The translations under genes were made by a program, and so were the position numbers. The notes below the pieces were generated by a model. That model was not told where the DNA came from. It did not search any database and saw only the letters and a program-made list of their open reading frames with translations. A stretch of DNA of 34,847 nucleotides from a virus, in IMG/VR virus record IMGVR_UViG_3300020421_002955, positions 1 through 34,847 of that record, one strand, 5' to 3'. How positions within the stretch are numbered: the stretch's first letter is position 1; the number at the start of each line of letters is the position of its first letter. This document shows positions 10,134 to 30,135 of the stretch, in pieces.

Positions 10134-10136
10134 ATC

Positions 10137-10144: not shown

Positions 10145-10147
10145 CAA

Positions 10148-11971: not shown

Positions 11972-12192
11972 TAGAACGATGCTCCTTGAATTATCAACTG
12001 TCTAGGATTACGAACTAGATGAAATTTTTGTGTTGCTAAATCATATTCTAATAAATCTCCATCTTCATGATCTGCACATAATACATCTGTCAAATCACAT
12101 AAAGTTTGTGCCTGTGCTCCTGTAACTTTTCTTACAGGAGTACCAATAATAATCTTCTTAACGAAGGTCTGTTCGGTTGGATCTGCTGACAT
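11971..12192 (-). CDS. Small virion-associated protein, unknown (73 aa)
   Basis: I do not recognise this protein. It sits between the Ig-like 116-aa protein and the 607-aa fibre, with 12 bases before it and a one-base TAATG overlap after it, so it belongs to the same late operon. It holds two cysteines in an LCDLTDVLCADHEDGD stretch, with an acidic patch (DHEDGDLLEYD) and a basic end (FHLVRNPRQL). The segment DLLEYDLATQKFHLVRN resembles short beta-hairpin units that end fibre domains. A small baseplate or fibre-attachment protein is plausible from position only. Confidence 0.65.
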   Translation of the reverse strand: MSADPTEQTFVKKIIIGTPVRKVTGAQAQTLCDLTDVLCADHEDGDLLEYDLATQKFHLVRNPRQLIIQGASF

Positions 12193-12204
12193 TATTGTTG
12201 TCCC

Positions 12205-12555
12205 TTACGTTACTGACGGCGCAACTACAATTTTACCTTCTAAAATTCTCTCGGTAATTGTTGCTTGATTAGAATCAACATAGGAAATTTCTACATCATA
12301 AACATAATTTCCCTTTTTAAGGGCACTGGTTTCAACATTTGTGAGTGACATTGTGATAATGCCATCAGTAGTTGGAGTATTAATAGCTACAGCAAAAGCT
12401 TGAGTATCAGCGCTATCACTATTGAAATTGCGCTTCATTGTAGCTGCACTCGAATAATTTGTTAAATTTTTCTTATTACCTGAGGGATCGACAAGGTGTA
12501 GCTCTACCGCTATATCTGAGCCTTGATCAAACCTAAAATGTTCGTACTGTGCCAT
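12205..12555 (-). CDS. Small Ig-like baseplate/fibre-base protein (116 aa)
   Basis: This is the first gene of the left late operon, with its ATG 28 bases from a late box. The protein is a single beta-sandwich-like unit: FRFDQGSDIAVELHLVDPSG, then a short N-acyl-like loop, then DGIITMSLTNVETSALKKGN, then YVYDVEISYVDSN and a final EGKIVVAPSVT strand. This order (polar tether strand, 'dQGSd' turn, G-x-Y-x-YDV strand, 'il-G-x-i-x-V' strand) resembles the N-terminal domain of upper baseplate proteins that anchor fibres in other phages. Small proteins of this type occur in marine T4-like genomes. I infer a fibre-anchoring role from fold pattern and position. Confidence 0.7.
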   Translation of the reverse strand: MAQYEHFRFDQGSDIAVELHLVDPSGNKKNLTNYSSAATMKRNFNSDSADTQAFAVAINTPTTDGIITMSLTNVETSALKKGNYVYDVEISYVDSNQATITERILEGKIVVAPSVT

Positions 12556-12582
12556 GTTCCACCCGCAAAATGTTTCTTGATC

Positions 12583-12590
12583 TATTTATA
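12583..12590 (-). promoter_or_regulatory. T4-type late promoter, proximal, for the left fibre operon
   Basis: The minus strand reads TATAAATA followed by GATCAAGA, the same 16 bases as at 10129-10144. The ATG of the 116-aa gene is 28 bases downstream. The box is half of the perfect 12-bp palindrome TATTTATAAATA (12583-12594). Confidence 0.75.
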
Positions 12591-12594
12591 AATA
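12587..12594 (+). promoter_or_regulatory. Possible plus-strand late box inside the palindrome
   Basis: Because TATTTATAAATA is its own reverse complement, the plus strand also carries an exact TATAAATA. It points at the enzyme cassette, whose GTG start is 94 bases away. It may add late transcription of the cassette, or may be only the unavoidable shadow of the palindrome. Confidence 0.35.
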
Positions 12595-12616
12595 AAACTA
12601 ATTGTGCATATTACTC

Positions 12617-12624
12617 TATTTATA
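12617..12624 (-). promoter_or_regulatory. Second T4-type late box for the left fibre operon
   Basis: A second exact TATAAATA on the minus strand lies 34 bases upstream of the first, in the context TATAAATAGAGTAATATG. Its downstream bases share only GA with the proximal copy. It overlaps the spacer region just left of the rightward sigma70-type promoter, so leftward late and rightward early transcription would start within about 40 bases of each other. Confidence 0.6.
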
Positions 12625-12626
12625 CA

Positions 12627-12655
12627 TGTACAAAGAGCTCATTTTATGGTATAAT
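12627..12655 (+). promoter_or_regulatory. Extended -10 sigma70-type promoter for the enzyme cassette
   Basis: TATAAT is at 12650-12655 with TG at 12647-12648 (TGGTATAAT, an extended -10). A 17-base spacer separates it from TGTACA at 12627-12632, which matches 4 of 6 bases of TTGACA. This is a strong host-type promoter of the kind used for early T4-like genes, placed 33 bases upstream of the first cassette start codon. The -35 is itself part of the palindrome TACATGTA, a possible operator. Confidence 0.7.
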
Positions 12656-12670
12656 AAGTAGTATTAGTTA

Positions 12671-12676
12671 AGGAGG
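12671..12676 (+). promoter_or_regulatory. Strong Shine-Dalgarno AGGAGG deciding a GTG start
   Basis: AGGAGG lies 12 bases before GTG at 12689. No in-frame ATG occurs before residue 67, so the GTG is the only sensible start. The spacing is a little long, which may lower translation. Confidence 0.7.
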
Positions 12677-12688
12677 GAAGAAGTACCC

Positions 12689-13330
12689 GTGAATAAAAAA
12701 ATAGAAAATGATGCAGGGTACCTATGGGCTTTCAACTATGATAACGAAGAATTTGAAAGAGTTAGAGAAATATGTTTAGCCGACACGAATAATAAATTGC
12801 GCGAAAACTACACAAAAGAAAAATTAAAAATTTCTGACCACGTATTATTTCTTATTCAGTATAATCATAATAATGAACCTATAGCTATGGGAGGTGTTAA
12901 AGAATATACAGCTGATGTATGTCGAATTTGTAATCGATGGTATCTTTTTCCGAATTCCCGTGGTGTATGGGGTAAAAAAGCTGAACTAATGATGGCTATT
13001 CAATTTTTATTAAGTTCTTTTAAAGAAATATACAAATTAAAGTACAAATTTTATTTTATTAGTATGCAACAAAGGAACTCAAAAAAAGCAGGCAAACAGT
13101 TATGGTGGAAAGCATTATGTTCGACAGTCAAATCATTTAGTGATAAATGGAAAACCTATGATGATGGATTAGTACAAGTACATGAAGGTAATTTAGCATC
13201 TTGCTACCAAAATATTATTTACATGACTACAAATAATTATACATTTGAAGATTGGAATCCAAAAGTTATGTCTTATAATGAACACGCACTAAGGATGAAT
13301 TATGAAGCCAGTTTACGAAATACAACATAA
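12689..13330 (+). CDS. GNAT-like N-acyltransferase-type protein (213 aa)
   Basis: This is the first gene of the plus-strand cassette, translated from GTG. The layout resembles GNAT acyltransferases: HVLFLIQYNHNNEPIAMGGV (residues 51-70) looks like the beta4 strand pair, CRICNRWYLFPNSRG (78-92) like the central strand and acyl-CoA loop, and KKAELMMAIQFLLSSF (96-111) like the helix after the loop. A further strand, KYKFYFISMQQRN, follows. The classical Q/R-x-x-G-x-G/A loop is not clean, so cofactor use is uncertain. Within a set of sugar-active genes it might acylate an amino sugar, which fits the aminotransferase downstream. The function is inferred; the coding status is strong, and its stop overlaps the next start by 29 bases. 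Confidence 0.5.
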   Translation: MNKKIENDAGYLWAFNYDNEEFERVREICLADTNNKLRENYTKEKLKISDHVLFLIQYNHNNEPIAMGGVKEYTADVCRICNRWYLFPNSRGVWGKKAELMMAIQFLLSSFKEIYKLKYKFYFISMQQRNSKKAGKQLWWKALCSTVKSFSDKWKTYDDGLVQVHEGNLASCYQNIIYMTTNNYTFEDWNPKVMSYNEHALRMNYEASLRNTT

Positions 13331-13763
13331 TTTTGACGACGTAAGATTATTAGAAGAATTGAAAAGTCAAGATCCTACAGTTTATGCTGACGAAAAACAT
13401 GGATCATATGATAATTGGAAAATCATAAATCAAACTGTCAGATGGGCTGAAAGAGAAATGCAATTCTTTTGCAATCAATTTAAATTACCATATGGTTCTC
13501 CGAGATATTATCACCTTGATGCAAATTCAGTATTACTACCTCATATTGACTACAACACCACATGCTCAATAAACCACATTTTAAATGACGAAGCTGCACC
13601 AGTTACCTTTAACGATTACGGAGAATTTACATATAATACTGCAGTACTTGATACAACAAAAATGCATGGTGTTAACAACTTAGGTAAAAAAGATAGATAC
13701 CTATTCAAGATTTCATATTTTGAAACTACATACGAAGAGATTATTAAATGCTTACAGAATTAA
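13302..13763 (+). CDS. 2OG-Fe(II) oxygenase-like protein 1 (153 aa)
   Basis: A compact double-stranded beta-helix protein. The facial triad is visible as H81-x-D83 in LLPHIDYNT and H122 in KMHGVNN. R132 (DRYLFKISYF) sits at the usual distance to bind 2-oxoglutarate. The order RYYHLDANSVLLPHID, then NHILND, then PVTF, then MHGVNN and RYLFKISY matches short phage dioxygenases. Such enzymes hydroxylate or otherwise oxidise a substrate using Fe(II), oxygen and 2-oxoglutarate. The substrate is unknown. AAGGA at 13291-13295 precedes the ATG by 6 bases, inside the end of the previous gene. The family call is good; a role in oxidising a sugar, lipid or protein side chain is inference. Confidence 0.7.
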   Translation: MKPVYEIQHNFDDVRLLEELKSQDPTVYADEKHGSYDNWKIINQTVRWAEREMQFFCNQFKLPYGSPRYYHLDANSVLLPHIDYNTTCSINHILNDEAAPVTFNDYGEFTYNTAVLDTTKMHGVNNLGKKDRYLFKISYFETTYEEIIKCLQN

Positions 13764-14269
13764 AAGATAGATACGATTCTAAAAAATTATTAGATTGTAT
13801 TGTCGGACTAGAAGAACTTGGCCAACAAATTCATGTTAGTTCTATAGACGGTAAAAGATATTCATTCAATTCTGGAGATCTTACAAAATATAAACTAGAT
13901 CAAAATGATTTTACTGTTGTAAATGATTTATTTAAAAATACCTATGCTGAAGAAGTTTATAACGATCTAAACCAAAAGTACGATATTTGTCGAGGCAGAT
14001 ATATGACTCTCGATGAAAGTTTTAGAGGATATTCATATCATTACGATATAACTGATAGAATTCATATCCCATTGACCACAAACGAGGACTCATTGTTTAT
14101 TGTAAATGATAAAATATTTAAAATGCCAGAAGTTGGTAATACATATCAACTACACACTACAAATAAACACACAGCTATGAATTTAGGCAAAACTTCTAGA
14201 ATTCATTTTACAGTTTGCTTAAAAGCTAGTGCTGTAATGCGACAATATTATGCGAGGATGACGCAATGA
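13748..14269 (+). CDS. 2OG-Fe(II) oxygenase-like, Asp/Asn beta-hydroxylase type (173 aa)
   Basis: Residues 95-160 carry the core of the aspartyl/asparaginyl beta-hydroxylase-like group: H98-x-D100 in YSYHYDITDR, then R103IHIPLTT, then a G130NTYQLH turn, then H141 in NKHTAMNLG and R151 in SRIHFTV. H98, D100 and H141 would bind iron; R151 would bind 2-oxoglutarate. The ~90-residue N-terminal part is not recognised and may bind substrate. It overlaps the preceding gene by 16 bases and the following gene by 4 (ATGA), so these three oxygenase-like genes are translationally coupled. The sequence differs clearly from its two neighbours, so they are not recent copies. Confidence 0.72.
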   Translation: MLTELKDRYDSKKLLDCIVGLEELGQQIHVSSIDGKRYSFNSGDLTKYKLDQNDFTVVNDLFKNTYAEEVYNDLNQKYDICRGRYMTLDESFRGYSYHYDITDRIHIPLTTNEDSLFIVNDKIFKMPEVGNTYQLHTTNKHTAMNLGKTSRIHFTVCLKASAVMRQYYARMTQ

Positions 14270-14991
14270 AAGAAGCATTAGGTCAACTATTTAAAACACA
14301 TCCGCATCTTGAAGGTCAACCTGAAGATAAATTGATGGCTATGATATTTAGATATATTTCTTTGCCAGCTGTGGAAGAAGAAAGGTATAAAGAGTTACAT
14401 AGTACTCCAATCGTAGAAACCGATATCAATATCGATTTAGATCAATTCGATAAAGATATTGAAAAATATAGCCATGAGTTTACTCAATGGGGAAATACAC
14501 ACACATCTTATCCAAGATTTGGCATACCTCTTGTTAATTTAACTGGTAAACTAGATGAAATAAATGATCCATCTCGTATGCCCCTCGATGAACATTTTAT
14601 GTTACATCAAAATACCGATAAAATATTATTTGACCATGATATATTAGAAAAAACTGAAGTATGCAACATGTCTTCTCTATCCTCATTAATGGACGCGTTT
14701 GGCGATTATTTGTGTAGAAGTGCAATATTAAAATGGGATACTATGGGACATTTTAAAGCTCATGTCGATGTTAAAGTTCCTTCTCCAAACTTAAGATTAT
14801 GGGGAACAACATCGACAAATATGCAGTTAAAAATGAATGGAAAGGTTATAAATAGTATCAAACCTGGAAAGATTTACATATTTGATTCATCATTAATACA
14901 CGAAGCATTTGCAACAGGCGATAATGTATACCAATTCTTCATTGGTTTAACAATCGATGCATATGATACGATGATGGATAGGAGAATTTAA
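14266..14991 (+). CDS. 2OG-Fe(II) oxygenase-like protein 3 (241 aa)
   Basis: The C-terminal half (156-232) has the dioxygenase layout: ILKWDTMGHFKAHVDVKV with H166-x-D168, then NLRLWGTTS with R177 in the place of the R-I-H-I-P strand of the previous gene, then IKPGKIYIFDSSLIHEAF with H212. The usual C-terminal arginine is not obvious; NVYQFFIGL stands there instead, so 2-oxoglutarate may be held by R177 or the co-substrate may differ. The N-terminal ~150 residues are acidic, mostly helical-looking and unrecognised. GAGGA lies 7 bases before the ATG. The next gene begins in its stop codon (TAATG). Confidence 0.62.
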   Translation: MKEALGQLFKTHPHLEGQPEDKLMAMIFRYISLPAVEEERYKELHSTPIVETDINIDLDQFDKDIEKYSHEFTQWGNTHTSYPRFGIPLVNLTGKLDEINDPSRMPLDEHFMLHQNTDKILFDHDILEKTEVCNMSSLSSLMDAFGDYLCRSAILKWDTMGHFKAHVDVKVPSPNLRLWGTTSTNMQLKMNGKVINSIKPGKIYIFDSSLIHEAFATGDNVYQFFIGLTIDAYDTMMDRRI

Positions 14992-15572
14992 TGGCACTTA
15001 TTATTTGCGGTACACAAGGATCTGGCGTAAATACGTTTGAACAACGATGCGATTACCATAATATTGCAAGTGATAATTTATATAAAATTTATATTACTAA
15101 TCGTCGTGCAATGAAAACTGGTCATTCACCAATTTCTGGACCGTTCTTAAATGAAACAAATATTGATAGTATGATTGAAGAATTAGAATCTCAGTTTCCT
15201 GCGTTATATGATCATTTAATGAAATTTCATATTGATCGGCCTGTGTGGACTCAATGCGCGCCAGAATTTGGCAAATGGATAGTAGAAAATAAATCTAGTG
15301 ATAATCATAATGTACTTATTGTATCTGCACCAATTGATATACAGTGCGAACGTCTATTTGCTAGAGAAAAAATACGCGATCCTCGATTAGTTGGAAAATC
15401 TAATTCTTATCAGTTAGTAAAACCAGAATATATAAAAGAAATAGAATCACACGCAGCTGACGTAAGTTGGCTAGAATCTAATGCAGATTACCATATGAAT
15501 AATGATGGCACCCTTGAACAATATAATGCAGCGATTGATATAGTATTAAATGAATGTAATTTACTCGAATAG
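14991..15572 (+). CDS. P-loop nucleotide/metabolite kinase-like protein (193 aa)
   Basis: The N-terminus MALIICGTQGSGVNTFEQRC looks like a first beta strand and P-loop, but the invariant Walker A lysine is replaced: G7-TQGS-G12 is followed by V-N-T rather than K-T/S. Residues 107-114 (NVLIVSAP) form a further core strand. CERLFAREKIRDPR (119-132) resembles the arginine-rich lid of small-molecule kinases such as dephospho-CoA or adenylate kinases. The missing lysine suggests altered catalysis, a non-ATP ligand, or a binding role. GGAG at 14981-14984 precedes the start. In context it could activate a sugar or amino-alcohol by phosphorylation; this is speculative. Confidence 0.5.
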   Translation: MALIICGTQGSGVNTFEQRCDYHNIASDNLYKIYITNRRAMKTGHSPISGPFLNETNIDSMIEELESQFPALYDHLMKFHIDRPVWTQCAPEFGKWIVENKSSDNHNVLIVSAPIDIQCERLFAREKIRDPRLVGKSNSYQLVKPEYIKEIESHAADVSWLESNADYHMNNDGTLEQYNAAIDIVLNECNLLE

Positions 15573-16398
15573 AACACTAGCATATCATCACGACGATACA
15601 CTACTTATAAAAGATATGTGGGATTTGGGAGTATCAGGCTCTCAGATTGCAATGTCTCTTGCAAAAGCTCAAAGAATTTATGAATCTTTAAAATATTCAT
15701 TTGCAGATAATGAAACTTTTATTATGGGATGGAATATACTCATCTTAGTATCTAAAGATGCATGTGGTAAATTTAAAGAAGAAGATTTTGAAACAAATCT
15801 TGATAGATTAAAATTTCTTACGCAATCATTTAAAAAGCCAGAATTTGAAGTAGGATTTACAATCTCTACTGTATCACAAATACCATTCAAAGATACCGAA
15901 ATATTTACATCTTTATGGCCATTCGAAAAACAATGGATTGGAGATGGTGATTATGTGATGATCAAAGAGCCATTTCCATCGGGCTTTGATAGCTATCACG
16001 CAAAAACTCGAGGAATATCTTTAGAAAAAGCATTTAAACATGCAAAAGATAATGGTCTTGAAGTTAAAATGTTTGATTATAAAACTAAGTGGTCAGATCT
16101 AGTAGATGATATGATTCATTGTAAATATGTTATTAGCGAAAGATCTACACTTTTAGCACTTGCCCTTTTTACAAACACTCCGACATTTATGTTATCTGCA
16201 CCAGCTCATAAGATATATCTTGATGGCCAAGAAAGACCTGTGTTATTTGGTAATGGAAATTTAGGTATGACATGGAACGTAGATCACTACGATAAATATA
16301 TCACACAAAGTTATATGACAGTGCCATTTTTTAATGTTGATCAAAATGATAATTTGGATAGGATTGTAAAAGATGAAATGCATAATTGGTTGGGATGA
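15550..16398 (+). CDS. GT-B-like glycosyltransferase (282 aa)
   Basis: The C-terminal half resembles the nucleotide-sugar half of GT-B glycosyltransferases. WSDLVDDMIHCKYVISERST (181-200) and LLALALFTNTPTFMLSAPAH (201-220) match the common pattern of a strand, a Ser-bearing turn, a helix and a second strand ending in a small-residue loop. Residues 55-70 (ETFIMGWNILILVSKD) and 100-115 read as strands of an N-terminal Rossmann-like domain. No signal peptide or membrane span is visible, so it acts in the cytoplasm. It overlaps the gene before by 23 bases and the gene after by 26. The family within GT-B is not recognised; a polysaccharide pyruvyltransferase-like fold is an alternative. Confidence 0.5.
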   Translation: MNVIYSNRTLAYHHDDTLLIKDMWDLGVSGSQIAMSLAKAQRIYESLKYSFADNETFIMGWNILILVSKDACGKFKEEDFETNLDRLKFLTQSFKKPEFEVGFTISTVSQIPFKDTEIFTSLWPFEKQWIGDGDYVMIKEPFPSGFDSYHAKTRGISLEKAFKHAKDNGLEVKMFDYKTKWSDLVDDMIHCKYVISERSTLLALALFTNTPTFMLSAPAHKIYLDGQERPVLFGNGNLGMTWNVDHYDKYITQSYMTVPFFNVDQNDNLDRIVKDEMHNWLG

Positions 16399-16996
16399 AA
16401 AATTAAAAGCTCAGTATAGAGTTTGTAAATCTACTTTATCAGTTGATACATTGCCTACTCAAAATATGTTTTTACCTTTTAGAGATGGATCAACAGCCTT
16501 TACTATGTCACGATTTTTAGTACCAGAAATGATGCAATATCATGGATGGCATTTATTTTGTGATAGTGATTTTTATTTTTTAGATGATGCTCGAAAATTA
16601 TTACATTACGCAGATTCAAAATATGCAGTTGTAGTTTGTAAACATCCTGAGTATGAACCAAAATCTGATTTAAAAATGGATGGCAAACAACAAACTTCGT
16701 ATAAAAGAAAGAATTGGTCTTCTTTAATGTTATGGAATTGTGAACATCCATCTAACAGATTTCTTCGACCTCCATTTATTGCAGACTGTAATCCATTATG
16801 GTTACATCAGTTTAAGTGGTTAAAGGATGAAGAGATTGGTGAAATACCTTTAGAATGGAATTGTCTTGAAGGTTATTATGAATGTGATGATGCTAAGGCT
16901 ATACACTACACAGATGGGGTACCTTTATTTGATAAATACAAAAACACACCTCATGCCAAACTATGGTTAGATAGGCATGAACTTTTATTGCGTTAA
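16373..16996 (+). CDS. GT-A-like glycosyltransferase 1 (207 aa)
   Basis: The DxD motif that binds the metal and nucleotide-sugar is clear as D64-S-D66 in HLFCDSDFYFLDD. Downstream are WSSLMLWNCEHPSNRFL (115-131), a typical acceptor-side strand and loop, and AIHYTDGVPLF (176-186), matching the H-x-x-x-G end of small GT-A enzymes. The protein is soluble and, at about 207 residues, close to a minimal catalytic domain. It is the first of four short GT-A proteins in the cassette and overlaps its neighbours by 26 and 20 bases. The sugar and acceptor cannot be told from sequence. Confidence 0.72.
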   Translation: MKCIIGWDEKLKAQYRVCKSTLSVDTLPTQNMFLPFRDGSTAFTMSRFLVPEMMQYHGWHLFCDSDFYFLDDARKLLHYADSKYAVVVCKHPEYEPKSDLKMDGKQQTSYKRKNWSSLMLWNCEHPSNRFLRPPFIADCNPLWLHQFKWLKDEEIGEIPLEWNCLEGYYECDDAKAIHYTDGVPLFDKYKNTPHAKLWLDRHELLLR

Positions 16997-17585
16997 AGTA
17001 GGAACTCGATACGACTCTACATTTGTAATCAAACTTGAAAACATGATAGCTAAAAACTACCATGGAAATTTTAAGTTCTCATGTATTACAGACGACAAAA
17101 CCTTACCCTTACATATTCACACAATACAAATACCAGATTTCGGATTAGAGAAATGGTGGGCTAAAATGGTTTTATTCGATGAGACTTTTATTGAAGAAGG
17201 TTGTTTCTTTGACCTTGATACTGTAATTACTGGTGATATAACAAACTTATGGAATCCAGGTAAAATGCCTAAATTTATTCATACTGATTGGATAGATTTA
17301 AAACAATTAGATATGGACACAATTGGTAATAAACAAAGATATTGTTCCATAAATTCGTCTATTTTGATGTGGAACCAAATAACAAAGAGACACCATATTT
17401 GGGAGTATTTTATTAAAAACAAAAATAAAATTATGGATATATTTACAGGTATTGATTCTTTTATTGAGCATCGTTTTCCAAATGATTATGAACTTATACA
17501 AAGGCCAGAATCAGTGCATATTCTACTTGACAAAAAGCAAGATGAATTAGGGGAAGATCCATGGATACAAAAACATTGGAATTAA
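16977..17585 (+). CDS. GT-A-like glycosyltransferase 2 (202 aa)
   Basis: The opening MNFYCVKVGTRYDSTFVIKL and the strand FKFSCITDD (32-40) match the start of small phage and marine GT-A enzymes. The DxD motif is D79-L-D81 in CFFDLDTVITGDI. RYCSINSSILMWNQITKR (121-138) corresponds to the acceptor-side strand, and IFTGIDSFIEHRFPNDY (155-171) to the following helix and base-binding region. The KWWAKMVLFDE stretch (59-69) precedes the DxD as in related proteins. It differs clearly from the other three GT-A genes here, so each may add a different sugar or linkage. It overlaps the aminotransferase gene by 25 bases. Confidence 0.72.
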   Translation: MNFYCVKVGTRYDSTFVIKLENMIAKNYHGNFKFSCITDDKTLPLHIHTIQIPDFGLEKWWAKMVLFDETFIEEGCFFDLDTVITGDITNLWNPGKMPKFIHTDWIDLKQLDMDTIGNKQRYCSINSSILMWNQITKRHHIWEYFIKNKNKIMDIFTGIDSFIEHRFPNDYELIQRPESVHILLDKKQDELGEDPWIQKHWN

Positions 17586-18436
17586 GGCCTGATTGGACTC
17601 AGCCGCAATATCCAACAGGACATAAAATAGATTTATCAAATAACGTTTGTTTTGATGCAGCGCTGCCTACATATGAGTTTGATTTAAATCGATATTCAGA
17701 CACAAGTAAGTCATATAAAATATTATCAGATTATTATGATTTGTATGCTCGTCAGATTGCTATTGGTTTGGGCTTAAGCGAACTGATTATGAGAATAATG
17801 CTTATAATAAAAGAAAAAGGATTTAGCTTTGCATCTGGTCCAAATACATGGGCTCCAGTTGAAATGTGTAGAAGACTATACCAAATACCCACTGGAAATG
17901 ACGTTTGTTATATTGCGAATCCTCATGGCACAAACGGAACAATTATAGAAGATTACGATGAACTAATTTCTAAACATAAATTAGTAATTATCGATGAAGC
18001 TTATGCAGATTTTTGTGAGCAAATGCCAAAGGCTAAATATGGTTCTCCAAATGTTTTAGTATTAAAAACTTTAAGTAAGTCTTTAGCATTACCAGGATCA
18101 AGGTTTGGGTATGCGTTTGGCCACGAGGTTTTGATTAATGAAATACAGAATTTAAGACCTGCACAAGTGTCATTACCAGGAATAGAAAGCAATCTAATAT
18201 CGATTCTTGATGAAATACCCAATCACGTAAAAAGAATGAATGCTACTAAGGCATATATAGAAAAGAATTATGACTGTATACCTTCACATGCCAATTATGT
18301 GTTGATTAAAAATTATGAAAAATTTGCTCGTCATTTTCATGTAAAAGAACTTGATGGTCATTGTCGTATGGCATTGATCAACCGTAATATGGTAACTAAG
18401 AATGCTCTTGACAAAGAACACCCTTTCTTCGATTGA
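17561..18436 (+). CDS. HisC-like PLP aminotransferase (291 aa)
   Basis: A fold-type I PLP enzyme of the histidinol-phosphate aminotransferase group. Visible landmarks are LSNNVCFDAAL (25-35) near the N-terminus, IGLGLSELI (68-76) at the cofactor phosphate site, and NPHGTNGTII with N120. D145 in VIIDEAYADF would pair with the pyridine nitrogen. LKTLSKSLALPGSRFGY supplies the Schiff-base K173 and R181, and SHANYVLI (242-249) and HCRMAL with R269 follow. At 291 residues it is shorter than typical HisC (~350), mostly in the middle and at the end. No other histidine gene is near, so a role in histidine synthesis is unlikely. It may make an amino sugar or amino alcohol phosphate; HisC-like enzymes of this kind serve capsule decoration in Campylobacter (Cj1437). 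Confidence 0.78.
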   Translation: MDTKTLELRPDWTQPQYPTGHKIDLSNNVCFDAALPTYEFDLNRYSDTSKSYKILSDYYDLYARQIAIGLGLSELIMRIMLIIKEKGFSFASGPNTWAPVEMCRRLYQIPTGNDVCYIANPHGTNGTIIEDYDELISKHKLVIIDEAYADFCEQMPKAKYGSPNVLVLKTLSKSLALPGSRFGYAFGHEVLINEIQNLRPAQVSLPGIESNLISILDEIPNHVKRMNATKAYIEKNYDCIPSHANYVLIKNYEKFARHFHVKELDGHCRMALINRNMVTKNALDKEHPFFD

Positions 18437-19175
18437 ATTAAATCCTGTTGATATATGTAATAGAACGTGCGGATTTTGTCCACGCGGCCATGGATTTAAA
18501 AATACGAAGGCAATGATGGTAGATGATACAGTCATTGCAATTAATAAATCTTTACAAGATATAGATTATAGAGGCACTGTAACCTTTGCAGGTTTCGGTG
18601 AACCTTTATTGCAAAAAAATTTAAAGAAGCATGTACAATTGCTTTCAAATAATGTACAATTAAAACAGATAAAACTAATAACTAACGGAGATTTTTTAAC
18701 TCAAAAAACTGCATTCCAATTAATTGATGCTGGTGTCAACTGTATTAAAATATCAATGTACGATGTAGATGATAGTGAAAGATATGAAGCCTTCTTATCT
18801 CAGTATAGTCATGTAGAAAGAATATACAAGCATTATTATAATGGTTTACCAGAAGAAGTCGAAGTAAATCGTACTGACATTTGGCAGAAATCAGAAGAGC
18901 TTAGTATTAATAGAGCATGTTATTTACCTTTTTACAAAATGTTTATTAATTGGAATGGAGCTGTTGGCTTATGTAGTAATGATTGGTCACAATATAAAGT
19001 ATTTGGTTATGTACAAGAAACACCAATACATAAAATATGGGAATCAGAAAAATTTAAAGTGTATAGAAATAATTTAATGAAAAACAAACGTGCACTTAAT
19101 CCATGTATAAAATGCAATGTAAACGGCCAAATATTAGGAAAGGAAAGTTTTGAATATTACAAGAACAATGTCTAA
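18402..19175 (+). CDS. Radical SAM protein with SPASM-like C-terminus (257 aa)
   Basis: The radical SAM cluster motif is C19-x3-C23-x2-C26 in VDICNRTCGFCPRG. It is followed by FAGFGEPLL (62-70), the GGEP-type SAM-binding strand, and ITNGDFLT (93-100). The C-terminal part has C173YLPFYKMFINWNGAVGLC191, then IWESEKFKVYR (212-222) and C235IKC238, the layout of a SPASM/twitch domain that binds an auxiliary iron-sulphur cluster. Relatives modify peptides or sugars, including dehydrogenation, epimerisation and cyclisation. It begins 35 bases inside the aminotransferase gene, so the two are probably co-made. A joint role in making an unusual sugar, or in modifying a small peptide, is possible. No precursor peptide gene was seen beside it. 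Confidence 0.8.
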   Translation: MLLTKNTLSSIELNPVDICNRTCGFCPRGHGFKNTKAMMVDDTVIAINKSLQDIDYRGTVTFAGFGEPLLQKNLKKHVQLLSNNVQLKQIKLITNGDFLTQKTAFQLIDAGVNCIKISMYDVDDSERYEAFLSQYSHVERIYKHYYNGLPEEVEVNRTDIWQKSEELSINRACYLPFYKMFINWNGAVGLCSNDWSQYKVFGYVQETPIHKIWESEKFKVYRNNLMKNKRALNPCIKCNVNGQILGKESFEYYKNNV

Positions 19176-19764
19176 ATGTCCGATACCTTTCTGGCGTTAT
19201 TCTACAATGATCATGCATGTTAACGAAGAATATCCTCATCGTGTAAATGACTTCGCAAAATCATTTTCTAAAAACCAAGTAATGGCAAAATCTTGGTTAG
19301 TAGAACATTTATATATGGTTACGGGTACAGCAAACAATATCACAATACTTGGATCATGGTATGGCACAGTTATTGTACCTTTATTATTGAATTACTACTC
19401 AAACATTAAAACAATAAGACTTATAGATTATGACGAAGAAGCTCTTGCTATAGCGAGGTTTATGTTTGGCGATGATGTTACAACCCAAAAATCTGATGTT
19501 AGTTTTGATTGCGAAGAAATAGAATCTGATATTATTGTTAATACGTCATGCGAACATATGTGGCATATGAAAGATATAAAGTTAAACGGTTTGTGTGCCC
19601 TGCAGAGTAATAATTTCTTACAAGAAACTTCGCATATAAACTGTGTACACAGCCTTGAAGACTTTGTACACCAAACTGGCCTTCAAAAAATAGATTATGA
19701 AGGTGAAATACCCTTTGATGACTATCATGATAATAAAAGATTTATGTTAATAGGTAGACAATGA
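19150..19764 (+). CDS. Class I SAM-dependent methyltransferase-like protein (204 aa)
   Basis: The Rossmann-type SAM site is seen as ITILGSWYGTVIVPLLL (64-80, motif I with G67, G72) and the acidic end of strand 2 in IRLIDYDEEALAIAR (89-103). Motif IV-like residues follow in DIIVNTSCEHMWHM (127-140). The set GSWYG with NTSCEHM recurs in small phage methyltransferases. The start shown is TTG at 19150, just after AGGAAAGGAAAG; the ATG at 19168 (MSKCPIPFWR) is an alternative but has a poor ribosome site. The TTG start overlaps the radical SAM gene by 26 bases. It may O- or N-methylate the glycan made by the cassette; the substrate is unknown. Confidence 0.68.
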   Translation: MNITRTMSKCPIPFWRYSTMIMHVNEEYPHRVNDFAKSFSKNQVMAKSWLVEHLYMVTGTANNITILGSWYGTVIVPLLLNYYSNIKTIRLIDYDEEALAIARFMFGDDVTTQKSDVSFDCEEIESDIIVNTSCEHMWHMKDIKLNGLCALQSNNFLQETSHINCVHSLEDFVHQTGLQKIDYEGEIPFDDYHDNKRFMLIGRQ

Positions 19765-20531
19765 TCCATGTGCTTTGTAGCCGCTGGGGTGAAACATATG
19801 GACCTATATACGTCAACCGGCTTTTCAATATGGTTAAAAAACATATGCCATTTGAATTTATATTTCATTGTCAGACCCAGGACGCACAGGGAATAGATGA
19901 GCGTATATCTATACTCCCATTTCTACGAGACCTACCAGAATCAACGCCAGATGAGATGTTTGCATCAGATAACTGGTTAAATAATAAACCTCGTTTGTGG
20001 GATAGGCCAAAACTAAACTATTTCAAACCAAATGGTTGGGGATTGGATGGGTTGAGAATAGCTTTAGATCTTGATATGATTATACACAATGATATGACAC
20101 CACTTATCAATATGTTTAATAGACCAATAGTTGGTAGATCATGGTGGCATAATAGAAATCATGAGGCTAGACCAGATTGGAAACGTAGAAATGGCGCATA
20201 TACAAATGGTGGATTTTATATGTGGAAAGATAATCAACTTGAAAATATATGGAATGACTGTTTAAAAAATGCAGAGAAAATATATCACATTTATACTGGC
20301 GGCACAGATAATTTTATTAGTCAAAGACATTTAGATTTATTTGACTTTGTTCCATCTTCAATGTATTATTCATTTAATCGTGGATGTGAATGGCCAAATG
20401 ACTTAGATAAACATATTATTAGAAAAGATAAAATTATGTGTGCATTTAATACCGATCCTGGAGATGCCACAAATTTAGAATTACATGATGCAATTAAAAT
20501 ATATGATGAAGTAAAACAATTATGGCAATAG
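19761..20531 (+). CDS. GT-A-like glycosyltransferase 3 (256 aa)
   Basis: The protein opens with MIHVLCSRWGETYGPIYVNR, the start of a phage and marine bacterial GT-A group. The DxD motif is D103-L-D105 in IALDLDMIIHNDM (100-112). The acceptor-side RNGAYTNGGFYMW (143-155) is characteristic, as is the GGTDNFISQRH helix (180-190) with an aromatic-rich end (SMYYSFNRGCEW). It is the longest of the four short GT-A proteins. The ATG overlaps the previous stop (ATGA) and the next gene begins 10 bases before its end. A cytoplasmic role in building an oligosaccharide is likely. Confidence 0.78.
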   Translation: MIHVLCSRWGETYGPIYVNRLFNMVKKHMPFEFIFHCQTQDAQGIDERISILPFLRDLPESTPDEMFASDNWLNNKPRLWDRPKLNYFKPNGWGLDGLRIALDLDMIIHNDMTPLINMFNRPIVGRSWWHNRNHEARPDWKRRNGAYTNGGFYMWKDNQLENIWNDCLKNAEKIYHIYTGGTDNFISQRHLDLFDFVPSSMYYSFNRGCEWPNDLDKHIIRKDKIMCAFNTDPGDATNLELHDAIKIYDEVKQLWQ

Positions 20532-21133
20532 ATGTATATACATGCCGTATAGGCGACAAATATGGATTTGATTATGAAATTAATCTAATAGAAAAAATAG
20601 ATCGCTTACACGTAATACATTCAGAAATAAATGGATTAAAACTGCAATGGAATAAATTGAATTTTTTTAATCTTGATATCGATGAACCAATTGTAGTTTT
20701 AGATATTGATATTGATCTTATAAATGAATATGAAGATATATTAAATTATCCTATTGAAAGAGGACAATTTTTAAGTATGAGATCGTGGTGGGAAGATAGA
20801 AGCGATTGTGAATTAAACGGAGGGTTTTATAAATTTTATCCATCTGATACTAAATACATTTATGAAAAATTTATGTCGAATAAAGAATATTATGAAAACT
20901 TTTGGATAGAATTAGGATCAAAACCAGGACCAATAAATGGAGAAGAAAACTTTGTGGAATGGATGGTTAAGAAAGAACTTGACTTAAAATTTGTGCCTGA
21001 TACCTGGGTAGGCCGGATGGTAGAAGAGCCAACCAAAGAATGGCTGGCTCAAGCTAATCGTAAATATCCTGGTGATTATTTTTATTTAGATCAAATAAAT
21101 CCTGATGTTAAATTATTACACTATACTATGTAA
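20522..21133 (+). CDS. GT-A-like glycosyltransferase 4 (203 aa)
   Basis: The opening MAIDVYTCRIGDKYGFDYEI resembles the opening of the second GT-A gene. The DxD region is an extended D61-I-D63-I-D65 in IVVLDIDIDLI. SMRSWWEDRSDCELNGGFYKF (85-105) matches the acceptor-side strand of the third GT-A gene. The protein ends in KLLHYTM, the H-containing end of small GT-A proteins. It is the last gene of the cassette. Its stop codon lies inside the end of the opposing baseplate-block gene (8-base overlap, 21126-21133), so no terminator separates the two convergent operons. Confidence 0.72.
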   Translation: MAIDVYTCRIGDKYGFDYEINLIEKIDRLHVIHSEINGLKLQWNKLNFFNLDIDEPIVVLDIDIDLINEYEDILNYPIERGQFLSMRSWWEDRSDCELNGGFYKFYPSDTKYIYEKFMSNKEYYENFWIELGSKPGPINGEENFVEWMVKKELDLKFVPDTWVGRMVEEPTKEWLAQANRKYPGDYFYLDQINPDVKLLHYTM

Positions 21134-21617
21134 TTATTGAATTGTAAATAGTTAATGCCTCATATGGAGTTGATGATTCTCTAAGAGAAGTTTTATCTAC
21201 ATCACTTGCTGAATTTACTGCATCAACTTCAAACATTTCAAGTTTTAGATTAAATAGTTTTTCTACGTGATCAGCATTAGTTGAGTCATACGTAAGCAAA
21301 AATGCTCCAACATCGGCCATAATTTTTGCATTATCTTCTGGCCCAGTGGCTCTTACATAACTAACTTTTCCTTGTTCAATTAATTGTTTCTGATATTCTT
21401 CAATTTCTTCACCAATCTTCTCGTAATAGTTATCAGTCCAAGCCTCAATCTGAGCAATAGAACAAACCATCATTAGTTCCTGAAATAACGCTTGATCAGC
21501 ATCAACTAGAATATTAATATTCGTAATACTACCATCTACTTCTTCGATAAAGGCTTGAATATTTGTTCCTTCATCATTAGTAAAAATGGCTTGTAATAAA
21601 TTATTTTCTGTGATCAT
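21126..21617 (-). CDS. Small acidic protein at the end of the baseplate operon (163 aa)
   Basis: I do not recognise this protein. It is acidic and mainly helical in appearance: ADQALFQELMMVCSIAQIEA and YYEKIGEEIEEYQKQLIEQG suggest two helices or a coiled coil at 39-79. A more mixed C-terminal half follows (ADVGAFLLTYDSTNADHVEK). It is the last gene of the right late operon and starts in the stop of the 441-aa gene (ATGA), so it is made together with virion proteins. It could be a minor virion protein or an assembly chaperone; the acidic helical nature fits a chaperone slightly better. Function unknown. Confidence 0.6.
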   Translation of the reverse strand: MITENNLLQAIFTNDEGTNIQAFIEEVDGSITNINILVDADQALFQELMMVCSIAQIEAWTDNYYEKIGEEIEEYQKQLIEQGKVSYVRATGPEDNAKIMADVGAFLLTYDSTNADHVEKLFNLKLEMFEVDAVNSASDVDKTSLRESSTPYEALTIYNSIIT

Positions 21618-22939: not shown

Positions 22940-22942
22940 AAT

Positions 22943-23506: not shown

Positions 23507-23712
23507 TACAGTTTCTCTATCAGTTTGTTAATTAAGTCTTTCATTTCTCTTACTTCGTTTCGTAACTCAACCACTTCGTTATTTCGAGATTGCCTTAATC
23601 TTTTAGCTTCACGGGCTTGATGAATAGTTTTTTTATCAGTATTCAATATAGCCTGCGTATTTGTATCTCTAACTAATGTTTGTGATCCTTCAACTCTTAA
23701 ATAATTTTTCAT
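23506..23712 (-). CDS. Small coiled-coil virion protein (68 aa)
   Basis: Conserved small protein of cyanophage baseplate regions. The N-terminus MKNYLRVEGSQTLVRDTNTQ followed by AILNTDKKTIHQAREAKRL is typical of the family. Residues 43-68 (RNNEVVELRNEVREMKDLIN) have heptad-like hydrophobic spacing and should form a short coiled coil. It overlaps both neighbours by one base (stop/ATG), between the 1689-aa protein and the decapeptide-repeat protein. It may link two baseplate proteins or help assembly; the exact function is not known. Confidence 0.72.
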   Translation of the reverse strand: MKNYLRVEGSQTLVRDTNTQAILNTDKKTIHQAREAKRLRQSRNNEVVELRNEVREMKDLINKLIEKL

Positions 23713-26700
23713 TATACCGCCAATGCTATAACTCTTAAATCTTTGAAGATAGGAGGTTTAGCAGCATTTGTTGATTTCATTACAATTTTAATTACAAATC
23801 TAGAGAATGAAGTTGACAGTCCGTTTTGCCCACCTACCAAATATCTATAATCTCTAAATATATTTGGATTCTCATCAGATGGTAATTCAGTTTCTTTTGG
23901 TTGTTCTATCCAAGCAATATCATCAAAGTTTTCACCGTCATTGGCCACTTTATAATAAACTTCAAAATCAGCAACTGATGGGCGATGAGCTGAGAGTAAT
24001 ATCTTCAAGCCAATAGCATCTTCTTCAAGAGTCACTGGTCTTACGACGTGTTTACCTATATGCGATCCACCGATTGCAGCTATCTCATCAACAAAGTTTA
24101 TTGGCGTATTATGTTGAGGTGCATTAACTGGTGCATTTGCAGAATCTTGTTGATCAATATGATTATGAATCAAGAACATTGAAGCTCTTTGCATATCAAG
24201 CATTGGAGATACATCAGTATTTGCTGTACTCATATCTACATTAATTGTTGTAGACTTATTACCAGCTCCTAACTTTGTAGGTTCTAAGTCGCCATTAACA
24301 ATCATTCTTGGTGCAGGGAAAACATTATTTTCTCTAATATCTAAATCAGTAAATACTACATCTTTGGCATAAGGAGTTTCTGTACCAGCCAAAGATTTTC
24401 CTGAAGTAAATTTGCCTTTCATTGCTATTGCAGTATTTACAGGCATCAAAGGCTCAAGGAATGGAACGGCAGTTTCAAACATCATATTACGTGTCGTTAC
24501 TACGTTTGATCCACCAAAATTAAATGCTGAACTAGGATTGGTTTTAGATAGTGTTATTGTAAAATTATTTTCATCTACATCAACTACTGTTCTAGATCCA
24601 AGAATATCTGAACCAACTAATCCACCACCATATGCAGTGCCTGAATCAAGACCATAAATTTTTACATTATCTCCAGCCACAAACCCGTGATTTAATTGAT
24701 TCACAATTAGTGTAGAGCTAGAAGAATCAAATGTTAATGGATTTTCTCCGGCCAACTTTCTAGCTATTGGAGCATTTTCTAATACAGCTGTACCACTCGC
24801 ATCGAATTGAGCATGATGAATTTCGAACATCATATCTTTTGTTTGCGAAGGTTCCCAAGTGAACGAGTTTTGAGATAAGAATAAAGAACCTAATGTTGGT
24901 TGCTTAGTAACCTTTTTCTCAGTTGAATTTAAAATAAACTGTTCAGTTTCTGCAATATAGACATTATAATCTACAGTCTCAGCCTTGACAATAAATGCAT
25001 ATTCAGTATATCCATTAAGGAAGATAGGCTCTTCAAATTCAAAATCTGTAGGACCAGATGCATCATTAGTAACTGTCACATTTCCTGGATTAATAAACAC
25101 TGTTGATCCTGGAATTATGACATCAGAAGAAGGATGTCCATTTATCATGGGGCGTAGTTCTAATTGAACAGGAACTGAGTTAGATTTACTTGCAAAATAT
25201 AATCTAACGCGAGTTACGTATACACCGTTTCTTCTATCAACATAAAATGATTGAGCTAGCGGATCGCATGGCTTATCGTTTCCATCATCCGGTGGATCTA
25301 ACTCAACTGATGTTTGGAATCCTCTAATTGTAACATGTCTAGTTGATAATACGTCGCGCTGACGAGTTTCTATAACTCCATTTGCTGTAAATGTTGTTTT
25401 AGCTACTGATAGCGCATCTTGTTCTCTATCAGCCGTAATATCTAATAGTTTAAATTCTCTTTCTCCAGTTCTAAATCTAAAATTAGGAGTAGATGGAATA
25501 AAGAACGATCCTTCAATTACTCCTTGTGGACTAGTAGTAAGTGTTGATGGTCCATTCGGATGTTGAGTAGCGTTATTTAATCTATTTCCATACTCATCTG
25601 AAGTAGTAGCAAATCTTTGGAAAGCTTCAGATTTAACCCAAGCATCAACAGATCTACCATCAAATCTAGGCCACATTTGAACACTCGATCCTAATCCTTC
25701 ACCCCTGAAAAAGACCATTCGTGATCTCATAAAGGGAATAATAGCAATATTAACTACACGTTCGCCTATTACTTCTCTAATAGTTTCTGCTCTTACAACT
25801 CTATTAACTCGAGTAGTTTGTGTGTTACCGCTAGTAGAAACGGTTCTTCCGCGTTCTTGTCCTAGACTTGCATTAATATTATTACCTTGCCAAGACCAGT
25901 TCCAGTTATTAAAGTTAAATGCTTGAGTTGTATCTAGTCTTGTTCCTCCGTTAAATACACGAGGAGCTGTATAGATAACTTCTTTCCATTCGTCGGATGC
26001 TGGTGATAAAAGAAGATTACCGCGATGTGTAATCACCGCAAATGGATTGACATTAATAGTTTGCGATACTACAGGTTGTTGAATAAATGGAGTTTCATCA
26101 TATCTAATATATACGTTATCACCTTTTAGTACAGTATTTGTAGAAAGATCAGAATCATATATTAGACGAACATTTTCTTCGTTAAATGTTGGTCGCATAA
26201 TTCTAGCTTGTGGATCAATAGATGATCTAAATTCATCACTAACTGTGAATGATACTGCATGATCCGCAAAATTATCTACTAAAAACCCTGATTTTGTTCT
26301 ATCAACTCCAGTAGAATCAAACACTGCGAAGTTTTGTACATCAACTTCAAGCAAACTTAATGCCGTTGCTTCTTCTAAATCATCTACTCTATCTTCAAGC
26401 TTTTGTATATCTCGCATAGTGAAGCCTTTAGCTTCAATATTTTGCATTGTCATATCATCTACATTTTTTGATCCAGCATTCAATTTAATTCTATAAAGCT
26501 CTAAAGTATTAATTGGAGTTGGAGCAAATTGTGGTGTTAACGATGGAGTTCCTTGAACTACTGATACAACACCTTGGCTGTTTACAATAAGCTTATCATA
26601 CCTCGGTAAATAATACTCAGTATCGAGAGTAACTAAGCTAGTATTTACAGGAACTTCATTGACTCTTGCAGTTGCTGCACTAAAGCCATTATTATTATCG

Positions 26701-28791: not shown

Positions 28792-30135
28792 TTAGAACTG
28801 TAAAATAACTTTTACGTCTTCTGCTTGCACATTCGACCGTAAGATAGCTGCTCTATTATCTATGTATAATATATCACCGGTGTTAGGATTGACTTCTGGA
28901 TTGATCTTAGCAGAATCAATAATTCCAGTACCTACACCATTTGTTTCATTAATAACTTCCCCATCTTGGAAATCAGAAAAACCAGTTGTTGTAGTTTGAT
29001 GATAATAAATGTCTGATGAATCTATATCATCAATGTATGCTTCAGCCAAGGTAATTTGACCTCTGATAATTTTATCTTTAGTAAAAGCTTGTACTACACT
29101 TGACAACTTCATTCTTTTTAAAGTATTACCAGTTGTTGCTGTAAATACTGCACCTGCATCATCTTTAATATCTTTGACCAATGTCACTTGTCTAAAGTCT
29201 TGATCTGTGATGAAGTTACTATCTGTTCCTTCAATACGAGAATGGAACATAATAGCTGCAGATTTTAAATCAACTCGACAGTCTGCACCAATTCCAGAAT
29301 CTGGACCAAGAACTGCACGTGCTGTAGCACCACCGCCACCACCACCAGTAATTTCAACTTCAGCTCGAGTATATCCTAATCCTAACTTTTGAGTAGTACC
29401 GCTATCAGCCATTTTAATCCATGCTAGTGTGCCAGTTGCTGAATCAATTCTAGCTATAGCTTGGGCCCCAGTACCAGAACCAAGAATATTAACTGTTGGA
29501 TTTGATGTATATGCACTACCAACTGAAGTAATAATAACTGATGTTACTGCTCCTACTTTGGCAGTATCTTGTATTTCTTCTTGTTTTAATTGAATACCTG
29601 TTGACGATGAATCAGTTTGCAATTGTTTTTTAACTGGTAAAAAGTTAGATGACATAAATGAGTTTGCTCTTGATGCACTAACAGTAAATAAAAATTTCCA
29701 AACATAACCATCTGATAATCTAAATGAATCATTGTTTGCACTTGTTGGTTCTACAGTAGATCCAACTGCCACTCCGCTATTATCTCTACCAGTTTCTAAA
29801 CAAATATACACATTGTTATTTCCATTCATTACATAATATGGATTAGCAGGATAGCCAGAAACTTGACTATCGAATTGTGAATATATTGTACCGTTTGACC
29901 AATTATATCGTGGAACTACAAGAGATGTTGCTTGAACTTTCTTGACAGATTGCATTTGGTTTCTTGCGCCAGTAACATCACTCGCTCTGTTAATCGGAGT
30001 TGGTACTGTATCAGCGCTATCCCAAATTTCTGATCTGCCAATACCAATATAATATCTCGCAGTATTTTGGGCAAACTGATCAAAAAATTGTCTAGCTAAA
30101 AGAGTTCTAAGAGCATCGGTTACAATTGCTGGCAT
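28792..30135 (-). CDS. gp8: Baseplate wedge protein gp8
   Basis: T4 gp8 landmarks are in order: an N-terminal helix region with ARYYIGIGRSEIWDSADTVP (T4 FGRSEPW), VVPRYNWSNGTIYSQFDS (T4 VIPRRDWGDTRY), then an N-V-Y-I-C-L strand, then SDGYVWKFLFTV (T4 GDGYVWEYLFEI) and, near the end, GDILYIDNRAAILRS (T4 MIYMENRPPI). At 447 residues it is longer than T4 gp8 (334), the extra part being a DSA-containing, Gly-rich stretch around 200-290. In T4 gp8 is a wedge component that binds gp7 and helps the baseplate change shape on contact. It starts 2 bases after the 609-aa gene. Confidence 0.92.
   Translation of the reverse strand: MPAIVTDALRTLLARQFFDQFAQNTARYYIGIGRSEIWDSADTVPTPINRASDVTGARNQMQSVKKVQATSLVVPRYNWSNGTIYSQFDSQVSGYPANPYYVMNGNNNVYICLETGRDNSGVAVGSTVEPTSANNDSFRLSDGYVWKFLFTVSASRANSFMSSNFLPVKKQLQTDSSSTGIQLKQEEIQDTAKVGAVTSVIITSVGSAYTSNPTVNILGSGTGAQAIARIDSATGTLAWIKMADSGTTQKLGLGYTRAEVEITGGGGGGATARAVLGPDSGIGADCRVDLKSAAIMFHSRIEGTDSNFITDQDFRQVTLVKDIKDDAGAVFTATTGNTLKRMKLSSVVQAFTKDKIIRGQITLAEAYIDDIDSSDIYYHQTTTTGFSDFQDGEVINETNGVGTGIIDSAKINPEVNPNTGDILYIDNRAAILRSNVQAEDVKVILQF

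Follow-up and report, generated by a model that had tools for sequence, protein, structure and literature searches.

The gene cassette and its products

The virus record IMGVR_UViG_3300020421_002955 of IMG/VR, analysed here at its full length of 34,847 bases (the window), carries T4-type virion genes on its minus strand and, set between them on the plus strand, an operon of thirteen genes (12689-21133) whose predicted function is the tailoring of a glycan. The thirteen open reading frames (ORFs) encode 153-291 amino acids (aa) each, every one overlaps the next, and their G+C content is 0.29-0.34 versus 0.34-0.40 in the surroundings. Two minus-strand ORFs, v6 and w1 (Table 1), bound the cassette, and the 3' end of w1 overlaps the last cassette gene. 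A sequence-only reading had placed such an enzyme block between two minus-strand virion blocks; the v6, w1, w5 and w6 ORFs confirm this position, and the coordinates, strands and gene content were also correct, but the number of genes was not, since its title gave twelve and its own list sums to thirteen.

A family or fold was supported for eight of the thirteen products, the remainder being assigned mainly by motifs; single-protein Pfam and PHROG scans left most cassette proteins without a family. The HisC-like aminotransferase and the radical S-adenosylmethionine (SAM)/SPASM-like protein that had been read from the sequence proved to be firm by Pfam and PDB matches. In HISC, D145, Y148, K173, R181 and R269 were invariant in nine aligned rows, and K173, D145 and R181 are presumably the pyridoxal phosphate (PLP) lysine and the Asp and Arg of the cofactor site. 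The score against the HisC equivalog TIGR01141 was 87.6 bits (cut-off 276.55), and it is as a member of the superfamily, not as HisC itself, that the protein is firmly predicted. In RSAM the CxxxCxxC motif (C19, C23, C26) and four twitch cysteines (C173, C191, C235, C238) were invariant in eight viral rows, and the twitch-Cys region was aligned with BtrN. The same CxxxCxxC motif was present in 65 of 68 viral RSAM matches; the other three (L004, L190, L220) begin past it.

The GNAT and GT-B folds, also proposed earlier, were recovered from the AlphaFold2 (AF2) models. All 50 PDB rows listed by Foldseek for GNAT are acetyltransferases (best E 2.3e-5, query TM 0.34-0.51, root-mean-square deviation (rmsd) 4.4-7.7), and no meaningful match was found in Pfam, PHROG or NCBIfam. 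For GTB the best Foldseek match was WaaC (E 1.1e-3), to which VIA aligned 187 of 282 residues with Z 10.3 and rmsd 3.5. As for the four GT-A-like proteins, GTA2 was upheld by its PHROG match (its solved-structure search was without match) and GTA3 by homology, while GTA1 depends on the annotation of its relatives and GTA4 on a weak profile match to GTA2 (E 0.037) with little beyond the DxD motif. The methyltransferase-like MT keeps conserved glycine and acidic positions, which we take to be the class I methyltransferase motif; its profile support is weak, and a 31% homologue is annotated accordingly.

KIN had been called P-loop kinase-like. It remains P-loop-like, but the kinase part of the claim is weakened, as the Walker-A lysine is absent from the window and from five closer orthologues: the position holds V/V/Q/V/V/R in the window, L005, L002, L003, L047 and L048 (in L003 the next residue is a K), and only the distant protein of contig G005 has a K at the position itself. 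The solved-structure search returned weak stretches only (dephospho-CoA kinase, E 0.083 and worse), and because the P-loop lysine is missing, ordinary kinase activity should not be assumed.

In all three putative 2-oxoglutarate (2OG)-Fe(II) oxygenases the HxD...H triad is invariant, in line with the previous reading. OX1 and OX2 also have the invariant Arg for 2OG, and in OX3 the single column inspected for it, 223, holds Q/T and no Arg. By profile the oxygenase identity is firm for OX2 only; OX1 and OX3 are motif-based candidates. OX1 aligned with OX2 by hhalign (E 5e-5, probability 67) and gave no meaningful Pfam family; the profile links of OX3 were weak (Pfam Asp_Arg_Hydrox E 0.041, hhalign to OX2 E 0.033), and its solved-structure search gave no meaningful match. 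OX2 itself had matches below the cut-off to Pfam Asp_Arg_Hydrox (E 0.0018) and NCBIfam TIGR04531 (E 4e-6).

Enzyme mixes of 2OG oxygenases, glycosyltransferases and PLP/radical SAM enzymes are known from the hypermodification of phage DNA, and the cassette could be imagined to serve that purpose. OX2, however, is of the Asp_Arg_Hydrox/beta-hydroxylase type and the cassette is located in the tail region; a Tet_JBP match was found in none of eight records, which are fragments and in which a control also matched nowhere. DNA as the substrate is very improbable, and glycan tailoring remains the reading that is followed below.

Table 1. Positions of the cassette genes, the bordering and neighbouring virion genes and the regulatory motifs in the window.
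Feature	Predicted identity	Position	Strand	Evidence
GNAT	GNAT-fold acyltransferase-like	12689..13330	+	AF2 model, mean pLDDT (predicted local distance difference test) 72.7; Foldseek
OX1	2OG-Fe(II) oxygenase-like, H81-x-D83, H122, R132	13302..13763	+	motif invariant in 3 rows
OX2	Asp/Asn-type beta-hydroxylase (predicted)	13748..14269	+	PDB 7v4f 'Beta-hydroxylase' E 1.2e-14
OX3	2OG-Fe(II) oxygenase-like, H166-x-D168, H212	14266..14991	+	motif invariant in 7 rows
KIN	P-loop-like protein without Walker-A lysine	14991..15572	+	GxQGxGxxT
GTB	GT-B fold glycosyltransferase (predicted), nearest GT9 heptosyltransferases	15550..16398	+	AF2 mean pLDDT 79.8
GTA1	GT-A-like glycosyltransferase, DSD motif	16373..16996	+	phrog_28018 (unknown function) E 3.6e-43; some relatives annotated glycosyltransferase
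GTA2	GT-A glycosyltransferase (predicted)	16977..17585	+	phrog_1962 (glycosyltransferase) E 8.7e-12; DxD invariant in 3 rows
HISC	compact HisC/CobD-like PLP aminotransferase, Lys173	17561..18436	+	Pfam E 1.3e-13; PDB 1h1c E 1.2e-14
RSAM	BtrN-like radical SAM/twitch enzyme	18402..19175	+	PDB 4m7s BtrN E 7.2e-28, residues 8-255
MT	methyltransferase-like	19150..19764	+	spermidine synthases matched weakly, E 0.012; a 31% homologue carries the annotation putative methyltransferase
GTA3	GT-A glycosyltransferase (predicted), middle gene of nearly fixed end	19761..20531	+	hhalign to GTA2 E 1.3e-7
GTA4	GT-A-like glycosyltransferase (DID), last gene	20522..21133	+	DxD invariant in 6 rows
Cassette promoter	sigma70-type, TGTACA-17-TATAAT with TG extension	12627..12655	+	same architecture in 6/6 intact gaps
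Late motif	T4-type late motif TATAAATA, upstream of v6	12617..12624	-	minus-strand copy in 6/6 gaps; position test
Second late motif	upstream of v6	12583..12590	-	overlaps plus-strand copy 12587-12594
v6	L-shaped tail fibre assembly-like protein, left boundary	12205..12555	-	phrog_3304 E 3.3e-16
w1	uncharacterised protein, right boundary, convergent with GTA4	21126..21617	-	3' of GTA4 in 38 of 80 loci
w5	VrlC-like virion protein	23712..28781	-	tblastn; matching places in Mosig, HTVC008M annotated VrlC
w6	T4 gp8-like baseplate wedge	28792..30135	-	phrog_438 E 1e-79; P-SSM2 match annotated gp8

Conservation of the cassette in other viral contigs

The scans of viral contigs start from short peptide patterns, thus their counts are not prevalences. 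Four other viral contigs (G001/L003, G002/L005, G003/L062 and G004/L064) contain all thirteen genes in unchanged order and on the same strand, and the flanking genes are shared as well; the per-gene identity to the window is 34-79% in G001, 75-100% in G002 and 40-73% in G003 and G004. Three more contigs start inside the cassette, and their gene order agrees up to the contig end (seven genes in L001, twelve in L002, four in L004). In G005 both flanks are present and nine of the thirteen families are kept, in the order OX1, OX2, OX3, GTB, KIN, GTA2, MT, GTA3, GTA4; GNAT, GTA1, HISC and RSAM are missing, and a ketoacyl synthase is present in addition, as is a further 2OG oxygenase with a weak match. 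It is the only cassette with both flanks that is without RSAM and HISC; a weak antisense GNAT match in it (E 1e-4) was taken as spurious. In G006, which is cut at one end, ten families are accompanied by three further proteins, one QueC-like, one a second radical SAM protein and one unassigned; G007 has a reshuffled set. The QueC-like protein of G006 (179 aa, L066:2190-2729) is inserted between GTA1 and HISC.

Compared with L002, the ratio of nonsynonymous to synonymous substitution rates (dN/dS) was 0.05-0.17 in ten of the eleven genes compared (out of thirteen) and 0.38 in KIN, and the catalytic motifs that were inspected are intact in all but KIN. A chance or decaying collection of genes, or an anti-phage defence island, might be suggested by the fast-evolving KIN without its P-loop lysine and by one weak PADLOC match, in which MT hit a model for a homing endonuclease (E 0.0022). 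The low dN/dS, the conserved order and the intact motifs argue in the opposite direction, and no other PADLOC match appeared in the ten of thirteen proteins scanned. This explanation is hardly credible, and the conservation seen in the sequences already disfavours it. A co-inherited glycan-modification cassette, as had been proposed, is well supported by the conserved order, the enzyme families and the glycan genes beside its relatives. Neither assignment of the genes to unrelated families, nor their scattering among relatives, nor a fully known pathway covering them was found.

The nearly constant end of the cassette

The best 80 of the 211 loci found with GTA4 were analysed; they are not independent. 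In 76 of the 80, MT is found at most 2.5 kb upstream of GTA4 and on its strand; in 74 of these 76 loci the two are separated by a single ORF of 150 aa or more (by two ORFs in the other two). Clustering at 70% identity left 14 clusters, of which 13 include MT and 12 virion genes; the three that remained at 50% identity all include MT, and two of them virion genes. The 78 middle ORFs comprise 18 members of the GTA3 family, 56 members of another family and two pairs, one of them GTA2-like and the other, by eye, radical SAM protein-like. A DFD motif was present in the three members of the 56-member family that were aligned, and a solved-structure search with this family was without match; we infer that it may consist of glycosyltransferases. 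This nearly fixed MT-GTA4 end looks new.

The RSAM-HISC pair

Among the first 19 loci compared, HISC was matched in 16 and RSAM in 15 of those 16; the exception is a weak HISC match in the cultured pelagiphage Mosig EXVC030M (MT647606), which is without an RSAM match. An RSAM alignment scan of viral contigs then gave 68 loci: 44 of them hold a HISC-family gene no more than 4 kb away and 34 hold one no more than 400 bases away, counts that favour the pair because all eight query alignment rows were taken from paired loci. GTA1 is within 4 kb in 37, and HISC or GTA1 in 59 of the 68. Counted as clusters at 60% identity (any member, n=25), the respective numbers are 20 for HISC within 4 kb, 15 within 400 bases, 14 for GTA1 and 22 for either.

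As a control, HISC was searched for in 39 other phage loci, namely 29 GTA1 loci (of 32; three cassette phages were left out) and ten other pieces of G001-G005 and phage C48C1, and was found in none; at a laxer cut-off one of them, L019, gives a weak match (E 6e-4). RSAM was likewise found in none of 80 bacterial HisC loci (the best 80 of 534). RSAM relatives at E 1e-20 were detected in one of 289 genomes from the class of an Acetobacteraceae genome and in six of 292 from the phylum of a cyanobacterial metagenome-assembled genome, and HISC was absent from the seven loci around bacterial RSAM relatives, two of which are just 2.3-2.6 kb long. On these two genome sets and seven loci a bacterial origin of the pair was rejected.

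The ketone product of BtrN is subsequently transaminated in the butirosin pathway. For RSAM and HISC the simplest reading, a plausible one on the basis of sequence, is that C-OH would be converted via C=O to C-NH2 on a sugar, the amine being acylated by GNAT. The joint absence of GNAT, GTA1, HISC and RSAM from G005 is one case, which fits this amination-acylation reading. The product had been thought of as an unusual sugar or amino-alcohol: the pair lends indirect support to an amino sugar, and specific support for an amino-alcohol was not found. The pattern of a BtrN-like radical SAM enzyme with a HisC-like aminotransferase looks new; neither this pairing nor the 13-gene layout was met in the literature searched, which lay mostly outside subscription journals.

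Further surroundings of the two genes were also recorded. In G008 a GTA1-RSAM-HISC set has GT8, DegT, RmlD, epimerase and PIG-L genes before it, and a v6-like gene and long ORFs after it. In Synechococcus phage S-SCSM2R (L007:14992-25426) HISC and RSAM stand upstream of a 2,214-aa long tail fibre gene, and L213 is arranged likewise, with an ORF of 2,228 aa. An outer-membrane-barrel-like protein and an AMP-binding enzyme were seen near the pair in L168:11671-13472. In Campylobacter phage CJLB-12, a Firehammervirus (L008), BtrN-like genes and a HISC-family gene lie close to each other on opposite strands, so that the pair is also present in a phage of a quite different host.

Promoters and the time of expression

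Six intact gaps between v6 and the cassette were examined (window, G001-G005), of which at most five are independent as those of the window and G002 are nearly identical. All have the sigma70-type promoter on the cassette side and the minus-strand late motif on the v6 side (Table 1); a plus-strand TATAAATA copy overlapping a minus-strand one is present in the window, G001 and G002 and absent in G003-G005. In 11 pieces of six records, with ORFs from a simple longest-ORF caller, 28 of 42 TATAAATA copies stand at 15-130 bases in front of an ORF on the same strand (random mean 2.4), and so do 6 of 27 copies of TGNTATAAT (random mean 1.6). The numbers of the motifs are not above chance (8 versus 7.1 for TATAAATA, 4 versus 5.0 for TGNTATAAT, 55 versus 60.7 for promoter-like sites in general), therefore only position and conservation are informative. 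Because of the conserved sigma70-type promoter on the cassette side and the T4-type late motifs on the virion side, the cassette is likely to be expressed early and to depend on a host sigma factor, the flanking virion genes probably being late.

Comparison with known systems

This kind of locus is already known, and the description of the cassette as an undescribed system was too strong. In pelagimyophages a host recognition cluster (HRC) is bounded by VrlC on one side and the neck gene gp14 on the other; it was reported to contain glycosyltransferases and radical SAM cassettes, and a change of the host O-chain was proposed (PMC7029224). The window cassette occupies the corresponding place, beside the VrlC-like w5 and the tail fibre assembly-like v6. 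The HRC was described as non-syntenic (PMC7029224), in contrast with the 13-gene order found here in five records and the MT-one ORF-GTA4 arrangement in 74 of 80 loci; relative to the available part of that account the aminotransferase pairing and the promoters are additions of the present analysis. Cyanophage lipopolysaccharide/capsule clusters contain multiple glycosyltransferases, a second type has 2OG oxygenases and methyltransferases, jumbo cyanophages carry glycosyltransferase/2OG-oxygenase clusters, and either decoration of surface polysaccharides or a metabolite was proposed as their role (PMC7824862). Unlike the window cassette, in which none of these was recognised, the cyanophage clusters, as far as the available text goes, hold epimerases, sugar kinases and nucleotidyltransferases, or a halogenase and carbamoyltransferases (PMC7824862). 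What this analysis adds is the order of thirteen genes shared between records, a nearly constant end, RSAM and HISC as a pair, and the divergent arrangement of the promoters.

Mosig resembles the window in that MT and GTA4 homologues lie one gene apart in its tail-fibre region, and genes annotated as aminotransferase, molybdenum cofactor (MoaA-type) enzyme and Asp_Arg_Hydrox are also located beside its tail fibre genes. It differs in its middle genes (carbamoyltransferase, nitroreductase, desaturase), and the identity of GTA4 and MT is only 25-31%. Outside phages the nearest comparison is BtrN of butirosin biosynthesis, a radical SAM alcohol dehydrogenase that shares the twitch type of RSAM and carries out the two-electron oxidation of 2-deoxy-scyllo-inosamine to a ketone (PMC9012708); the partner of RSAM differs, being a HisC-like enzyme in a phage cassette.

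A second enzyme cluster was observed in G003 (L150:2042-13534), with epimerase, methyltransferase, sulfotransferase, GT25, fatty-acid desaturase and class III aminotransferase genes (six of ten proteins scanned were above the cut-off). ORFs similar by eye to this cluster, plus a ketoacyl-synthase-like ORF, were seen in G001 (L147:1-8000 and 11664-12824).

A possible role of the cassette in glycan tailoring

From the gene content and order, the motifs, the promoter sequences and the co-occurrence of the genes, an expression time, a substrate, a target and a series of reactions in a certain order can be proposed. The five probable glycosyltransferases (GTB, GTA1-4) would draw their nucleotide sugars from the host, as the cassette holds no recognised sugar-nucleotide gene. 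RSAM, acting like BtrN, would take a hydrogen from a carbinol carbon and oxidize it to a ketone, HISC would transaminate the ketone to an amine and GNAT would acylate the amine; MT might methylate, and the three 2OG oxygenases might hydroxylate the sugar or an attached amino-acid group. The nearly constant end (MT, one usually glycosyltransferase-like gene and GTA4) would work on a constant acceptor, and the middle genes, exchanged between phages, would set the variable structure. If the acceptor is a host envelope glycan, the product may mask or alter a receptor and thereby block competing phages or the re-adsorption of progeny.

Glycan tailoring as such is probable. The whole explanation, an early operon that tailors a glycan with the host envelope as acceptor, is also backed by the resemblance of GTB to heptosyltransferases and by the second cluster of G003; it is a tentative one, to which we give slightly less than an even chance. 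Several observations weigh against it. The nearly constant end adjoins virion genes, and in six loci (L256, L269, L273, L279, L284, L285) GTA4 shares its orientation with an OX3-like gene and with the tail genes v6 and v4. The pair is not universal either: 24 of the 68 RSAM loci have no HISC inside 4 kb, and from the side of GTA1 the link is weak, RSAM being present in only 2 of the 29 other GTA1 loci. MT, GTA4, OX1 and OX3 are assigned mainly by motifs, KIN is without the Walker-A lysine, and the nearest solved relative of OX2 is a hydroxylase of antibiotic biosynthesis.

The six co-directional loci fit better with decoration of the virion, in which tail proteins (v3, v4, w2 or VrlC) would be hydroxylated, MT-GT-GTA4 would add the first sugars and the middle genes would vary a fibre glycan. 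The same is suggested by w1, w2 or VrlC (w5) lying antisense within 6 kb in 44 of the 67 loci that have more than 3 kb downstream of GTA4, by the Asp/Asn hydroxylase type of OX2 and by the structural neighbours of GTB, which include TibC and the peptide-bound POMGNT2; TibC glycosylates a protein. In C48C1 only two ORFs lie between the w1-like gene and v6, both on the virion strand; no cassette homologue was found in that region, but the ORFs directly before v6 are by eye GT-A-like and 2OG oxygenase-like (annotated hypothetical). Against a virion acceptor stand the sigma70-type promoter of the cassette beside virion genes with late motifs, and the composition of the flanking proteins: fibres rich in Ser/Thr/Asn had been proposed; S+T+N is 0.17-0.32 in ten flanking proteins, computed without a baseline, with no clear signature, and no acceptor motif was identified. 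Decoration of the virion is a possible explanation that falls well short of even chances; early expression favours action on the host and is compatible with it.

A small molecule, such as an antibiotic-like amino sugar or a modified amino acid released during infection, should also be considered, since the nearest solved relatives of both RSAM and OX2 come from antibiotic pathways. The structure matched by OX2, 7v4f, is mentioned in a study of a hydroxylase for caprazamycin, presumably Cpz10 (PMC9814697), and such a product was proposed for another cyanophage cluster (PMC7824862). Five probable glycosyltransferases and the linkage to tail genes argue against this, and no carrier-protein, scaffold-forming or export gene was recognised, which makes the small-molecule route improbable.

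For glycan tailoring by the cassette a more general proposal can be made: T4-like phages would own a dedicated surface-type locus with a nearly constant MT-GT-GTA4 end, directed at a constant acceptor, and an exchangeable middle that would write the variable structure, and a widespread RSAM and HISC module, often with a phrog_28018 glycosyltransferase, would aminate a sugar hydroxyl in place, without nucleotide-sugar intermediates, by an amino-sugar route seen so far only in viruses. Taken together this remains doubtful. It should be emphasized that what could be called a glycosyltransferase-rich variable region can now be defined as a locus in which one end is nearly constant, the middle is exchangeable and the promoter is conserved, and that a two-enzyme amination step, recurrent in many viral contigs, is now named as testable. 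If the host envelope is the target, the cassette is a candidate means for T4-like phages to change which phages infect a cell; if the fibres are the target, virions would be glycosylated through a dedicated pathway.

Neighbouring genes

For w1 a PHROG match at 1e-3 was not found; it lies 3' of GTA4 in 38 of the 80 loci, at most 600 bases away in 19. A megablast search of window positions 10000-22940 against annotated phages gave no match, and the best match of the gp8-like protein among annotated phages was C48C1, with 33.5% identity. The long tail proteins v3 and v4 (window 3500-10090 and 10148-11971) have internal similar stretches in common and are rearranged among relatives, as expected of adhesins under diversification.

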